A DNA stretch of 64,000 nucleotides from Ganoderma boninense (taxonomy: Eukaryota > Basidiomycota > Agaricomycetes > Polyporales > Polyporaceae), in NCBI GenBank assembly GCA_002900995.3, contig CM035306.1, forward strand, positions 1,860,001 through 1,924,000, given 5' to 3'. This document shows, piece by piece, positions 45,918 through 53,656 of the stretch. A model generated the notes under the pieces. That model was not told where the DNA came from. It saw nothing but the letters and a program-made list of their open reading frames with translations, and made no database searches. Each line of letters opens with the position of its first letter. Position 1 is the first letter of the stretch. Both the position numbers and the translations under genes were made by a program.

Positions 45918-47494
45918 ATGGCTAGTAGACGGAAGAACACGGCAGAGACCAGCATTACCGACTCGGACGCGGGTGCCGAAGGCAAGAAAGGGAAGGGCAC
46001 CGGCAACTGGCGGAAACCCAGCAGTAAGCCTCGCTGAGCTATGTTCCAGACAACCTGACATCATGTTCTAACGCGGACTCGGATTATCTTGTCAGATACT
46101 CCATTCAAGCAGCAGCGATTGCGGGCATGGCACCCTCTTTTCGTCCCTCGCACTGTCATCCCTGCGTTGCTTGTCGTGGGAATCATCCTCGCCCCCATCG
46201 GCGGTCTCCTCATCTGGGGTAGTAATCTCGTAGGTGCCCACCCTCATCTAGGATTATCTCCTCCTGACGAGTCCTTGTGGGACTTCGCATTTACAGGTCA
46301 ATGAAATCGACATCGACTACAGCAACTGCGAGTTCACATCGGCCCAGAATGAAACGTCAAGCTCATCGCTTGCCTTCACGAACCTCTCGTCCTCATCCTA
46401 CATCTACAAGCTCAGCGTGGTCGACTCGCAGACACACGTCGACTCCCCACAGTACGCCTTCATCAACCGCACCGGCGCGCTCAATGCGACCAACGGGACG
46501 ATGCACCAGTGCGTGCTGCGCTTCGACGTGCCCGCCGAGATCAAAGCGCCTGTGATGCTGTACTACAAGCTCACGAACTTCAACCAGAACCACCGCCGGT
46601 ACGTCAACAGCGTCAGCCTCGACCAGCTCCTCGGCAAGAAGCCCAGCGACTCGTCGCTCTCGAACGACTGCAAACCTCTTGACAAGGACGAGAACAACAA
46701 GGTCATCTATCCATGTGGCATGATTGCGAACTCGATGTTCAACGGTGCGTCGGCACATATAGCCTCTGACAACAAGGCTCTCTCGGCTGCAGTCGTGCTC
46801 ACACAGCCCCAACGTCCCATCTGTACAGACACGTTCACGAACCTGACGCGGATCGATGGGGACGCGTCCTCGGACCCGCCGCTCAACTCGACGTATCTCT
46901 GGTCGGAGAAGAACATTGCATGGCCGGGCGAGGCGCGCAAGTACGTCACGAAGCCCGGGTACGCCGCCTCGGACATCGTGCCGCCGCCGTTCTGGATGGA
47001 CCGCTTCCCCAGCGGGTATACGGACGACAACCTGCCCGACCTCAAGGCCGACGAGCACTTCCAGAACTGGATGCGCACCGCCGGCCTCCCGACGTTCAGC
47101 AAGCTCTGGGGGCGCAACGACGACTTGGCGCTCACCCCGGGACGCTATGAGATATGGATCAACCTCAGTAAGTGTTCGTCTGCTGTGTGCGTCAGGACTG
47201 TATGATGACAAGGGGTGTTGCTGGATGTAGACTTCCCGGTGACGAAGTACAAGGGCACGAAGAGCATCGTGATCTCGTCCGCGGCGTGGATGGGCGGTAA
47301 AAACCCCTTCCTTGGGTGGACATACGTCGCTGGTTCGAGCCTCCTGCTCCTGCTTGGCTTCGTCGTGGCGATTGTCAACTGCATCAAGCCTAGGTTCGTC
47401 TTGGACATGCTCATATAGTTACAATGTTGTGACTAATGTCGTCCACGTCCACAGGAAATTGGGTGACGCCTCGAAACTCTCATTCACTAGATGA
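45918..47494 (+). CDS. CDC50/LEM3 family P4-ATPase flippase subunit, copy 1
   Basis: CDC50 proteins are the obligate non-catalytic subunits of P4-ATPase lipid flippases. They are needed for ER exit and for phospholipid translocation at Golgi and plasma membrane. The protein starts at 45918 with a charged cytosolic N-terminus (MASRRKNTAETSITDSDAG), then NTPFKQQRLRAWHPLFVPRT. The first membrane span is VIPALLVVGIILAPIGGLLI. The ectodomain includes the conserved [68 protein letters not shown] and [20 protein letters not shown]. The second span is GSSLLLLLGFVVAIVNC, and the end is RKLGDASKLSFTR. Several N-glycosylation sequons are present. Five introns fall at the same positions as in the copy at 52076. 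Confidence 0.94.
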
Positions 47495-47915
47495 TGTCTT
47501 CAGGGATTCGGTTGTGGATGGACATTTAGGTGAGTACATATACGCGCAGCCCGTTCAATACCTTCCGTCTAACAAGGTAATCATGGTACAGGAATGTTAC
47601 TGGACGCTTAATGTTTACCTAGATTGTTGTCGTGTCCGGATGTTTATAGCATCAGCCCTACTGGCAGCATGCACGGTGCTCTACATACCCAGAATTAATG
47701 TTATGGATCTGGTACGTTGTACAGGTACTCAGTTGGGGCGCTAACAGTGACCAGGACCTCCCATTGCGCCTCATTAGTGTGCACTCTACCTAAACAGTGA
47801 TGGCCGCTGACCATAGCCATGCGCAGGCTCGTTCCAATGATCCTATGTTCCTCCCATCCAAAACATTTAGTCAACCACTACTGACACCAGGCGGCTTGGT
47901 CCTGTACTTGCAGCC
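47495..47915. other. Intergenic, CDC50-1 3' flank and end of the intron-like array
   Basis: No supported protein gene. The last segment of the minus-strand array (from 47915 downward) may be the final exon of its transcript. Confidence 0.4.
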
Positions 47916-48483
47916 CTGTGGAGCACCTGTTCTCAGCGGCGGCACTTGCGACCATCTTGAACCACTGGTGAGACCCCAACTTGCAGTACTCACCTTTCTC
48001 GGGGGACGAGCCACGCAGTCGTATGCGCTCACCAAAGACAACCTGTGGGACGTCTGTCCTCAGCGGCGGACTTGCAACCAACTTGAACCCTGGTGAGACC
48101 CTATCTTGCAGTACTCACCTCGATCATATTCGAACGCAGGGACTGCGCCGCAAGCGCTTGGTTGAGCGATCTGTGTTGTTCCCCTTCTCAGCAGCGGACT
48201 TGCGACCATCTTGAACCACTGGTGAGACCTCAACTTGCAGTACTCACCTTTCTCCGACACACCACGCTGTCAAATGAGCTATCGAGGACAACCTGTGTTT
48301 TTTCCGTTCTCAGCGGCGGACTTGCAACCATCTTGAACCGCTGGTGAGACCCCATCTTGCAGTACTCACCTTGCGGCTTAACCCCACTGAGACGCAATGT
48401 AGACACCTGTGAAGCACCCGTTCTCAGCGGCGGACTTGCAACCATCTTGAACCGCTGGTGAGACCCTAACTTGCAGTACTCAC
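47916..48483 (-). repeat. Five-unit interspersed repeat, 76-78 nt units, period 113-129 bp
   Basis: The units at 47916-47993, 48043-48118, 48171-48247, 48293-48369 and 48407-48483 are near copies. The first ~62 nt (minus strand) differ by only a few bases between units. The variable part is confined to the ~10 nt before the CACAG end and to the spacers. Each unit also contains GGTGAG and CTCACC in inverted order. The repeat itself is certain; its nature is discussed in the findings. Confidence 0.95.
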
Positions 48484-48557
48484 CTCTGTAGCAACCCGCC
48501 ACGTTTCGGCGGTCGTGGAAGATGGGAGGGTCTTGTTGACGATGCTAACGGGAGCAT
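47916..48557 (-). ncRNA. Putative transcript with five near-identical introner-like introns (coding status unclear)
   Basis: On the minus strand the region reads as exon-intron alternation. The introns are 48483-48407 (77 nt), 48369-48293 (77), 48247-48171 (77), 48118-48043 (76) and 47993-47916 (78). Each begins GTGAGTACTGCAAG and carries a nearly invariant body, then a CTGAG(A/G)A branch-like site about 14 nt before CACAG at the end. The exons between are only 37, 45, 52 and 49 nt and are mostly unlike one another. Only exons 3 and 5 share their first GTTGTC and last GAGAAAG. With an ATG at 48557, splicing gives one open frame of about 73 residues that stops in exon 5. This is too short and composition-poor to claim as a protein, so a non-coding RNA is possible. 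A TATA-like CATAAAAC (48673-48680) and a CT-rich tract lie upstream. Confidence 0.45.
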
Positions 48558-49301
48558 CGTAGCGGGGCATGCAGAGAAGGCATAGCGAAGACAGCTAAGG
48601 TATTTGGGAAGAGGGTTGGGAAGAAAGGGAAGATGGTGCTCGATGGTGAAAGCAGACTGGTACGCCGGTCGTGTTTTATGCTCATCGACCCGGTGGCTGG
48701 CAGGGGCTTTACGAGGCTAACAGCTCCGCCCCTTTGCTGGCTGCCCGCACCACTTTGGCAGAGGTTCACTTGTGGGAGGCTGACTCGCCAGCTCTGGTGA
48801 AAGCCTCATAGTTCGCCGCCGAGACTGACCGATCACTGTTTTGGGAGATCGGTGTTACTGGAACTGTTAACGTTTCATATGCTCGAGGACGAGAGGTATG
48901 TTGAAGTCCGCCTCCGAGTCAGCCAGTTCGTGACACTCTGCATCGCCAACAAATTGCGGAAGGTGCACGTGCGGGCTCTCAACCTTGGCATGGAATGAAT
49001 ATATGACCATCGTTTATTGGTTATCTTCAACGAACGTGCACATAGACTGGGAGGCCCTCTGAGGGCATGCTCATCGGCGGAGATTTGGGACGAAGAGCGC
49101 TTAAACGCTGAATGGCTCAATATTCAATTTCGGGAGGACAGATCAAGCCGTCTCCACTAGCCTCAGACGGCTGATGGGACCTCTCGGGCCGCCCACATCA
49201 CTCCTCGAGTACCTCTTCTCCAGGATGCACCCACATAATGATACTGTACATAAAGGCGCAACGCGTGTTTGACGTCTCCTTGACCCCCGTCCCACTTCGC
49301 C
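48558..49301. other. Divergent promoter region, repeat-array transcript / NAGLU
   Basis: About 745 bp. It holds a CATAAAAC box and pyrimidine tract for the minus-strand array transcript, and a TACATAAAGG box near 49248 about 50 nt upstream of the NAGLU start. Short open frames occur but have no motif support. Confidence 0.5.
48673..48680 (-). promoter_or_regulatory. TATA-like box upstream of the repeat-array transcript
   Basis: The minus strand reads CATAAAAC, followed downstream by a strong pyrimidine tract (around 48604-48645), typical of fungal transcription starts, and then ATGs at 48583 and 48557. Inferred only. Confidence 0.35.
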
Positions 49302-51677
49302 ATGGGCTTGCGACACCGGCTCCTCGCGCTCCTGTCCTTCAGCCTCCTTGCTGGATCAGCTAGCTCGACCGCCACCTTGGACGGCATCTACGCCCTCGCA
49401 AAACGCCGCGTCCCAACCCATGCCCACGCCTTTTCCTTCTCCCTCTCTTCTGGCGCACCGGACTCTTTCCTGATCACCGATGTGCCCCTGGGCATCCATA
49501 TCAGCTGTACCACCGTCTCTGCTTGTGCTCGCGGCTTTTACACGTGAGTATCGTCTTTCATACTTGTCCCGAACACTGGTCTGAGCTGTTCCGAAAGGTA
49601 CTTGACCCAGTTTGGAGGGACAGACATTTGGTGGACTGGTTCACGGTTGACCCATCTTCCTCTGCACCTCCCAAAGGTGGGCACTCCGGTCAAGGGTCAA
49701 GCCATCGTGCCATACCGGTGAGTACTCTCCAGCCCTTTCCATCGACCAAGACACAACGGTGTCCGCAACAGCTATCACTTCAACACCGTCACGTTCAGCT
49801 ACACCTCTCCGTTTTGGAACTTCGATCAATGGGAACTTGAGCTAGACTGGCTCGCGCTCCGCGGCGTCAACCTCCCACTCGCCTGGAACGGCTACGAATA
49901 CATCCTCGCCGAGACATTCCGCGAAGTTGGCTTGACAGACGGCGAGATCGCGTCCTTCCTTTCTGGCCCCGCGTTCCAAGCGTGGAACCGTTTCGGAAAC
50001 ATCCAGGGCAGTTGGGAGGGCGATCTCCCGGAGAAATGGATCCACGACCAGTTCGAGCTCCAAAAACAGATCGTGAAGCGCATGGGAGAACTTGGTATGA
50101 CCCCCGTACTCCCCTCGTTCACCGGCTTCGTTCCCCGTGCCTTGACGTCTCACTACCCGAACGCCTCCATCATCAACGGCAGCCAATGGTCGGGCTTCCC
50201 ATCGCAACTCACCAGAGTTTCTTTCCTGGAGCCCTTTGACCCGCTGTTCGCCCGCTTGCAGAAGTCCTTCATCTCCAAGCAGCGCGAAGCATATGGCAAC
50301 GTATCACACATCTACACGCTCGACCAGTACAACGAGAACGACCCATTCAGCGGCGACCCCGCATATCTCGCCAACATCACTGCTGGCACCTTCGCGAGCC
50401 TGCGCGATGCGGACCCCAACGCCGTCTGGCTCATGCAGGGCTGGCTGTTCTTCAGCGACTCTGCGTTTTGGACGAATGCGCGCATCGAAGCGTATCTTGG
50501 TGGCGTTCCCGGGAACGACAGCATGATCATCCTGGATCTATACTCGGAGGCGCAGCCTCAATGGAACCGCACCTCGTCTTACTATGGGAAACAGTGGGTC
50601 TGGTGCGAGCTGCACGGGTACGGCGGCAACATCGGCATGGAGGGCAATCTCGACGCGATCACGCAGGGTCCCATCACAGCGCTGAACGCGCCGGGCAGCA
50701 GTATGAAGGGTATGGGCCTGACCATGGAGGGCCAGGAAGGCAACGAGCTCGTCTACGACACCCTGCTCGACCAAGCATGGTCCTCTCAGCCCCTGGACAC
50801 GACCACCTATGTGGACAAGTGGGTATCTCGTCGGTACCCCAAGAGCCCACTCCCGGAGGCTGCTCATGAAGCGTGGCGGATCCTGTCCACCACAGTCTAC
50901 AACAACAAGGACCCAAACACGCAGGCGACGATCAAGAGCATCTTCGAGCTCGCGCCCGCGCTGACGGGCCTCACGGGCCGCGGCGGACACCACCCGACCT
51001 CGATCCCGTACGACACGAACACGACCGTGCTGCCCGCGGCGAAGTACCTGCTTGAGGCACACCGGCAGAACCCGCAGCTCGGAAGTATCCCCGAATTCGT
51101 ATATGACGTCGTGGACGTGACGCGGCAGTTCCTGTCGAACCGCTTCATCGACCGCTACACTGCGCTGCTAGCGGCGTACAATGCGACATCCGCCACCGCC
51201 GACAGTGTCACCGCGGCGGGCGCCCCACTGCTGCAGCTCCTCTCCGACATCGACACGCTGCTCGCGACGAACGAGCACTTCCTGCTGAGCGCTTGGATCC
51301 AGGATGCGAAGCGGTGGGCAGGGGGCAATGGCCGGGGCAATACGGACCGGAACGCCTACGCACATTACCTGGAGTACAACGCGCGGAACCAGATCTCGCT
51401 CTGGGGGCCCGACGGGGAGATCAACGACTACGCGTCGAAGGCGTGGGCGGGCGTCGTGCGCACGTACTACCGCCCGCGGTGGGCGGCGTTCGTGGAGTAC
51501 CTGGCGGAGACGAAAAGGAACGGGACAGCCTACAGCGCGCAGGCGGTGCAGGCGACGATGCTCGCGATCGGGCAGCAGTGGTGCAACGGGACGTGGGGGA
51601 CGGGCGAGGGCGAGGTGTGGGGGACCGTCGGGGATACGTTTGAGGTCGCATCGAGGCTGGTGAGCGAGTGGGCGTGA
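49302..51677 (+). CDS. Alpha-N-acetylglucosaminidase (GH89, NAGLU-like), secreted
   Basis: GH89 enzymes remove terminal alpha-linked N-acetylglucosamine; the human homologue NAGLU degrades heparan sulfate in lysosomes. The protein has a signal peptide (MGLRHRLLALLSFSLLAGSAS) and an N-terminal alpha/beta domain (FSFSLSSGAPDSFLITD). The catalytic barrel follows with WELELDWLALRGVNLPLAW, NRFGNIQGSWEGDLPEKW, GMTPVLPSFTGFVPRAL, YTLDQYNENDPF and WLMQGWLF. Further motifs are ILDLYSEAQPQWN, WCELHGYGGNIGMEGNLDAI and MGLTMEGQEGNELVYDTLL. The Glu of YNENDP and MEGQE match the positions expected for the catalytic acids. The C-terminal helical domain includes YDVVDVTRQFLSNRF and NAYAHYLEYNARNQISLWGP. The long final exon begins near 49775, with two introns before it. 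Fungi lack heparan sulfate, so the natural substrate is open. Confidence 0.95.
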
Positions 51678-52075: not shown

Positions 52076-53656
52076 ATGGGTCTCTTCAACCGCAAGAAGA
52101 ACGGTGACGACGAGAACAGCAAGAAGGAGAAGGGCAGCTGGCGGAGACCGGCAAGTCAGTGCCATCTCGGATGTGATGAATGGACAGGGTGGAGACTCAC
52201 CCTCTCCCGCCTTCTCTCCTCATAGACACTGCCTTCAAGCAACAGCGGCTCAAGGCATGGCAGCCTATCCTCACTCCTCGCACCGTCCTCCCGACCCTCT
52301 TTATCGTTGGCATTATCTTCGCTCCAATCGGTGCCCTCCTCATCTGGGGCAGCAGTCTCGTGCGTCTCCAGACACCTTCATCCCCCCAGCGGCGTTCTCT
52401 CTGACCCTCCTCTATTTTGCTGCACACCGGTAGATCACCGAGATTGACATTGACTACACCGACTGCGAGCTCCTGGCCTCCCGAAATGCCACCAACACCT
52501 CCAAGTCCATTTCCTTCACCGACATCCCCTCCTCCAAGTACACCTACAAGCTGCGTGCCTCCGACTCTGGCGCACCCATCTCCACCCCCCAATATGCCTT
52601 CCTCAATCAGACCGGCGCCAGCGGTGTATCGGACGACTTCGCCAGCCAATGCGTCGTGCAATTCGACGTCCCTGCCGACATCGACGCCCCCGTGCTCCTC
52701 TACTACAAGCTCACCAACTTCTACCAGAACCATCGTCGGTACGTCAAGAGTCTCGACCAGAACCAGCTCCGAGGCGACCATGTCAGCTACGGCACCATCA
52801 AGGGGAGTGATTGTAAGCCTCTGGATGTCGTCGGTGACAAGATCATCTACCCTTGCGGGCTCATTGCCAATTCGGTCTTCAATGGTGCGTCTCCCTCTTC
52901 CTAAGCACCCCCCCCCCTCTGAGTGGCTCCGCACCACGGCCACTGCGGATCCGCGCTCCTCCGCGACGCACCATTGACTGCGGTTTTGTAGACACGTTCT
53001 CGAACCTGACCTTGACGTCGGACTCGTCAACAACATACGCCTGGTCACAGAACGGCATAGCATGGCCTGGCGAGTCCAAGAAATACACGTCCTCCCCTAA
53101 CTACCAGCTCTCGGACATCGTGCCCCCGCCAAACTGGGCAGACCGCTTCCCCAACGGATACACGAACAGCACGCCTCCCCCTGACCTGAAAGCGGACGAG
53201 CACTTCCAGAACTGGATGCGCACAGCGGGTCTCCCAACGTTCACGAAGCTCTGGGGACGGAACGACGGCGCGAAACTGCCCAGGGGGCGTTACCAGATCG
53301 CTGTCAACCTGAGTAAGTACAGTATATGCATGATGTGCTATCGTTGAGGCTGCGGTGGGGTCGGTGCTGACGGGCATCCGTTGTAGATTATCCCGTGCGA
53401 CCGTACAAGGGCACGAAGTCGATCGTGATCTCGACAGTGTCGTGGATCGGCGGCAAGAACCCATTCCTAGGATGGGCATATGTTGCTGCCGCCGCGCTTC
53501 TCGTCCTCCTCGGTATCCTCGGTACCATCAGGCACGTCGTTAAGCCCAGGTTCGTTCTCTCCCTTCCATTTGTCTGCTGGCATCGGCTCATGTGTGTGAA
53601 TGCTACTGTCTTCCAGGAAACTGGGTGATATGTCTTTGCTTTCGTTCAACCGGTAA
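52076..53656 (+). CDS. CDC50/LEM3 family P4-ATPase flippase subunit, copy 2
   Basis: This is a paralogue of the gene at 45918 with the same architecture. The short charged N-terminus is [20 protein letters not shown], then [20 protein letters not shown]. The first span is [19 protein letters not shown]. The ectodomain contains [86 protein letters not shown] and [20 protein letters not shown]. The second span is [14 protein letters not shown], and the end is [13 protein letters not shown] (TAA 53654-53656). Intron positions match copy 1. The N-terminal tail and the region around residues 60-110 differ most between the copies. Different tails suggest pairing with different P4-ATPases or different sorting, but this is inference. 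Confidence 0.94.

Follow-up and report, generated by a model that had tools for sequence, protein, structure and literature searches.

Five near-identical predicted introns form a single-locus array in Ganoderma boninense and may carry a conserved RNA

In the basidiomycete Cryptococcus neoformans, the identical introns of CNN00420 are attributed, in the passage that describes them, to expansion of a repeat of about 107 nt comprising exon ends and the whole intron (PMC2395259). An array of five near-identical intron-like units was found at positions 47916..48483, on the minus strand, of a 64,000-nt stretch of Ganoderma boninense contig CM035306.1 (positions 1,860,001 to 1,924,000; this whole stretch is called the window). 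It is like CNN00420, as far as that passage describes it, in belonging to a basidiomycete, in having several near-identical introns in what would be one single-copy gene and, for the one pair E3/E5, in the co-duplication of flanking exon sequence. It is unlike CNN00420 in that nine of the ten compared exon pairs show no recognisable relationship, the intron cores being alike, and in that the locus is known from sequence alone. A second group for comparison is the fungal host genes of small nucleolar RNAs (snoRNAs). The relevant passages of PMC3596301 describe intronic snoRNAs, in Basidiomycota too, in a poorly conserved spliced RNA with no long open reading frame, and mention small internal exons for some of the clusters. 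The array resembles the polycistronic host genes so described in its successive introns with one conserved stretch each, in its poorly conserved predicted spliced RNA and in having no long open reading frame. Unlike those genes, its introns repeat one sequence and not different guides, and are conserved from the first intron base. The locus combines the look of repeat-expansion introns with that of snoRNA host genes, and fails the snoRNA test as run. The mammalian SNORD115/116 tandem snoRNA host arrays are also built of tandem exon-intron modules in which introns are conserved more than exons; the array shares this organization, but its introns are of 77 nt and show no snoRNA signature. Fungal introner-like elements (PMC4457414), introners (PMC9860276) and the symmetrical stwintrons of Hypoxylaceae (PMC8469720), as presented in the parts of these papers that concern them, are near-identical short introns with good splice signals like the present units. 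The array differs from them in being at one locus only and in the module duplication seen for one pair.

The reading preferred here, tentatively, is that local duplication produced a non-coding transcript whose introns carry a conserved RNA of about 60 nt under selection. The argument begins with the pattern of conservation inside the units. The mean column identity of the five units is 91%. The first 14 unit bases are invariant and conservation begins abruptly at the donor: the exon bases directly 5' of it are AG in all five cases, giving an invariant donor context AG/GTGAGT (the slash marks the border), and at the 18 positions that precede these bases the agreement among unit pairs is 10 to 60%. 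From the donor through CTGAG, 54 of 62 columns are invariant and eight are variable. In the tail behind the branch site 9 of 11 columns are variable and two invariant; the length of the tail is kept, and it is followed by an invariant CACAG. This contrast between core and tail (8/62 versus 9/11 variable columns, Fisher p = 1e-5) persists when GTGAGT and CTGAG are excluded (8/51 versus 9/11, p = 5e-5), and in pairwise comparison 8 of the 10 intron pairs differ significantly more (p < 0.05) in the tail than in the signal-free core. A spliceosomal intron needs a donor, a branch site and an acceptor, and an ordinary intron tolerates change between donor and branch site. In the array 43 of the 51 columns in between are invariant, and this conservation needs explaining because the splicing signals alone do not require these columns. 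The earlier note on this DNA, which was made from the sequence by a model, had stressed something else: it took the tail as the only variable part and as the place where introns tolerate change. The tail is variable as it said, but the stretch before the branch site varies slightly too. Its second statement is half right, as the donor-to-branch stretch is normally tolerant too, yet is conserved here. The point needing explanation is this internal conservation of the core.

The units and the segments between them are given below in the order of the putative transcript.

48484..48680, minus strand: putative first exon E1, with a TATA-like and CT-rich upstream end; 5' end guessed by eye
48407..48483, minus strand: intron-like unit I1, 77 nt, GTGAGT...CTGAG...CACAG
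48370..48406, minus strand: mini-exon E2, 37 nt
48293..48369, minus strand: intron-like unit I2, 77 nt
48248..48292, minus strand: mini-exon E3, 45 nt, homologue of E5
48171..48247, minus strand: intron-like unit I3, 77 nt
48119..48170, minus strand: mini-exon E4, 52 nt
48043..48118, minus strand: intron-like unit I4, 76 nt, core one base shorter
47994..48042, minus strand: mini-exon E5, 49 nt, homologue of E3
47916..47993, minus strand: intron-like unit I5, 78 nt, core one base longer
47689..47915, minus strand: putative exon E6; 3' end depends on the candidate sixth intron
47619..47688, minus strand: candidate sixth intron, 70 nt, GTATGT...CTGAT...CTAG, from a motif scan only; sequence unrelated to I1-I5

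Five units of 76-78 nt had been described in this place, and they are present with lengths of 77, 77, 77, 76 and 78 nt. The intervals, announced as 37-52 nt, measure 37, 45, 52 and 49 nt. The coordinates give a donor-to-donor spacing of 114, 122, 129 and 125 nt, and Tandem Repeats Finder at its default score reported a single tandem array in the window, at 47915-48485, with a period of 122 and 73% matches. All five units start with GTGAGTACTGCAAG, contain CTGAG and end in CACAG, as had been claimed; the branch-like site had been placed about 14 nt before the end, and the branch-site A is in fact 17 nt before the intron end in all five. At the sequence level the units have GT..AG ends, a branch site and the short size of fungal introns. 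The signals were judged against the general fungal splice-signal consensus. With AG/GTGAGT, CTGA at a fixed 17 nt and the invariant CACAG behind a variable tail, the identification of the five units as spliceosomal introns, made earlier, is well supported, and their splicing is predicted. Within 29 bases of putative E1 (48555-48583, minus strand) there are three ATGs in three different frames.

The exons were compared in ten pairs, from E1 (last 49 nt) to E5, with E6 left out. E3 and E5 align end to end with agreement at 34 of 45 sites and four gap positions, and none of 5000 dinucleotide shuffles was as good. The other nine pairs were not significantly better than mononucleotide shuffles (p 0.07 to 0.68). 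The earlier description of the exons as unrelated needs correction for E3/E5, which are homologous over the full length, and the duplication of an exon-intron module, which the note had offered as its alternative, is borne out for that one pair. The homology of E3 and E5 means that in this step, at the least, an exon was duplicated together with its intron. In this homologous module the exons differ at 11 of 45 sites, and the I3/I5 cores have one indel and substitutions at 2 of 61 sites (p = 0.0017, with the indel left out); without the splicing signals the cores differ at 2 of 51, against 11 of 45 in the exons (p = 0.0055). I3 and I5 share T30 and C44 (unit columns), and I2 and I4 share A15, so these changes fit the duplication of a two-module unit. 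Column 17, where I1 goes with I4, and the similar I1 and I5 tails (2/11 differ) conflict with such a duplication, and the comparison of E2 with E4 gives no confirmation of it, as 751 of 5000 dinucleotide shuffles matched their similarity. On sequence grounds, it is concluded that the array arose, at least partly, by module duplication.

The RNA structure was analyzed for the core and for the whole intron. In the RNAalifold consensus, two adjoining hairpins occupy columns 1-26 and columns 27-60, the second one reaching as far as the branch A. All 79 of 79 cells pair in this consensus; three pairs vary, on one side only, and sliding the partners by 1-3 columns lowers pairing to 30-57%. When the core was folded as a circle, two adjoining hairpins were predicted in all five units, the branch A being the one unpaired base between their stems. 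The z-scores of the circular folds of I1 to I5 were -2.44, -2.54, -1.13, -0.97 and -1.80, and 16, 17, 138, 169 and 44 of 1000 shuffles were as stable as the circular core; in these shuffles the first five and the last four bases were left in place, and the five copies are not independent. The modelled circles give a weak hint of a folded core, short of demonstration. A mirtron was rejected, as the whole-intron hairpin with AG overhang is the minimum-energy fold only in I1 and I5 and not in I2, I3 and I4. A box C/D snoRNA was also rejected: with one mismatch allowed, no unit has a C box, and Rfam gave no match inside the array. ARAGORN predicted no tRNA in the window.

According to the preferred reading, a minus-strand transcript would be spliced and probably non-coding, and would have grown as an exon-intron module was duplicated locally in tandem, a step which the sequences argue for in E3-I3/E5-I5 and which may have been repeated for the rest. 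The introns would then keep the stretch of about 60 nt that begins at the 5' splice site and reaches the branch site, and drift would affect the exons and post-branch tails. The likely product would be the excised intron, either as a lariat loop or as an RNA trimmed from the lariat, in five copies per transcript and presumably stable and with a target. The exons may act as spacers, the role they have in the polycistronic host genes of fungal intronic snoRNAs. By this analogy the locus would be built like such a host gene, with membership in that class not established. A narrower form, that the lariat loop itself is the product and the locus a dedicated multi-copy source of a circular lariat RNA of about 60 nt, is very unlikely on present evidence; it is suggested because the conserved block spans from the first base to about the branch site, the two-hairpin circle is predicted in 5/5 units and the tail is free to vary. 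Neither a dedicated multi-copy lariat-RNA gene nor such a locus appears in the titles and abstract beginnings of the literature matches listed. In line with the preferred reading, intronic circular RNAs are reported in Ganoderma lucidum (PMC6848116). The passages on Ganoderma long non-coding RNA (PMC4059649) and on lariat turnover in Fusarium (PMC9606315) have no direct bearing on the locus.

Several results weigh against selection on an intron RNA. Folding of the linear introns is no better than that of shuffled sequences (z 0.06, -1.11, 0.94, -0.17 and 0.63). There are no compensatory changes, and a column-shuffle control equals the observed pairing values in 500 of 500 cases. Between 309 and 387 of 1000 shuffles also gave a junction with at most one unpaired base, and some boundary-shifted segments reach a z equal to or lower than that of the circular core; the geometry of the circle junction is no evidence in itself because shuffles and shifted segments do as well. 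A search of 47000-49400 against Rfam with permissive settings gave two matches, of E 1.7, both outside the array. The C box (RTGATGA) is found within one mismatch in none of the five units, the D-box motif CTGA being present in all five. The contrast between core and tail is absent in I1/I5 (p = 0.29) and I2/I3 (p = 0.14), and the ten intron pairs are mutually non-independent. The statistical contrasts on which the argument for constraint is built come from five related copies and a single homologous exon pair.

Two plus-strand genes border the intergenic stretch that contains the array: a CDC50/LEM3-like gene with a Pfam CDC50 match, and an alpha-N-acetylglucosaminidase (NAGLU) gene, whose start at 49302 is 819 bp from the array. 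The NAGLU protein shows 91% identity to a Ganoderma sinense protein and 85% to a G. leucocontextum protein. The putative minus-strand transcript would form a divergent pair with NAGLU and a convergent one with the CDC50-like gene. Two CDC50/LEM3-like frames, 46252-47205 and 52434-52904, both on the plus strand, flank the array and NAGLU. The Pfam match belongs to the first of them. The two share 55% identity over 154 aa, so this region is bracketed by a local gene duplication.

The array had been proposed to consist of introner-like elements, and further copies were searched for in the assembly (55.57 Mb, 74 contigs). These genome searches skip very common words and score best candidates only, so that their counts are lower bounds and diverged copies could be missed. 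The whole array was found at this locus only. BLAST with the single units I1 and I3 (E<=10) gave five places each, and a gapped pattern of 24 fixed bases also gave five, all at this locus. A 31-base pattern with up to three mismatches gave four places, again all here; I4 was missed because it differs too much. A covariance model of the units, run on the window and a further 200 kb of its contig, recovered the five units and otherwise nothing better than E 4.6, and a 20-nt core pattern had no exact match in collections of prokaryote and viral contigs, which are poor places for fungal sequence. The segments 48484-48720 (upstream exon and promoter region) and 47450-47915 (downstream exon) are single copy in the genome. 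Self-comparison of 264 kb (about 0.5% of the genome) revealed 35 close repeat pairs, four of them belonging to this array. Intron-like ends on both copies, with borders slid by up to 2 nt, occurred in three of the four array pairs versus 0 of the 31 other pairs; on single copies of the 31 other pairs they occurred in 5 of 62. Degenerate tandem repeats unrelated to the array were observed in the self-comparison at 1.50-1.51 and 1.54-1.55 Mb of C3, the contig of the window (L016, L020).

Near-identical introns with intact splice signals are thus found, as in introners, but copies in many unrelated genes are not. Published introners occur in many genes, according to the passages on their distribution (PMC9860276; PMC4457414). 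The array fails to belong with them because its copy number is five units at one locus, and introner dispersal was rejected, all copies that these lower-bound searches found being within 568 bp of 55.6 Mb. The searches for which the earlier note had asked have therefore gone against its introner proposal. One mobile intron might still have been inserted separately at five places of the same gene, which would account for near-identical compact introns between mostly dissimilar exons. This is highly unlikely: the homology of E3 and E5 speaks against insertion into an uninterrupted exon for one step, and the border repeats, compared by eye, are no longer than the AG/GT that splicing itself needs. 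A fast-evolving small protein gene with tandem mini-exons could be suggested from the longest spliced frame, which is open from E1 into E5 and has 114 codons between stops, or 73 aa from its ATG. This is scarcely probable. The frame is matched by 126 of 1000 shuffles (stop to stop) and 271 of 1000 (from ATG), two peptide searches found no relative, and the exon lengths mix phases, the difference of 4 nt between E3 and E5 breaking the frame. The units themselves were also considered as coding, in a retained-intron frame which is open in parts. This was rejected; the core changes, compared by eye, affect all three codon positions, one-base indels occur in two of the five units, and a peptide search gave no relative. 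From its sequence, the transcript is probably non-coding.

A neutral origin is the main rival and a real possibility, if on the unlikely side. An intron-bearing DNA repeat would have expanded by slippage or unequal crossing-over, with gene conversion homogenising the cores after the exons had drifted, and the introns would have no function beyond being spliced out. CNN00420, as far as the passage on it goes, is a precedent for identical introns from repeat expansion (PMC2395259). The changes shared within I3/I5 and I2/I4 fit a two-module duplication together with the E3/E5 homology, and conversion could be reflected in column 17 and in the I1 and I5 tails. But a duplicated module should carry its exon edges, and the conserved block runs instead from AG/GT to just past the branch site; the tail of the same intron has diverged, yet kept its length; and the expected E2/E4 pair is not above shuffles. 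It is more doubtful that the conserved 62-nt block is a DNA element, for example an intergenic protein-binding array, with splice-like ends that are in part a coincidence or seldom used. The position upstream of the NAGLU start and the unremarkable linear folding would suit such an element. It would not be expected to place AG/GTGAGT at the first conserved bases of all five units and CACAG behind a variable tail at a fixed distance, and the genome searches gave no further copies elsewhere.

Expansion of intron-bearing repeats is already known, with exon ends riding along with the introns. Introns that outlast their exons point to selection on the intron RNA. The array would be a small, naturally occurring system in which to test whether a gene can exist for the sake of its excised lariat. 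If its history proves neutral, it would still be a clean case which separates the copying of introns by local duplication from true introner mobility.
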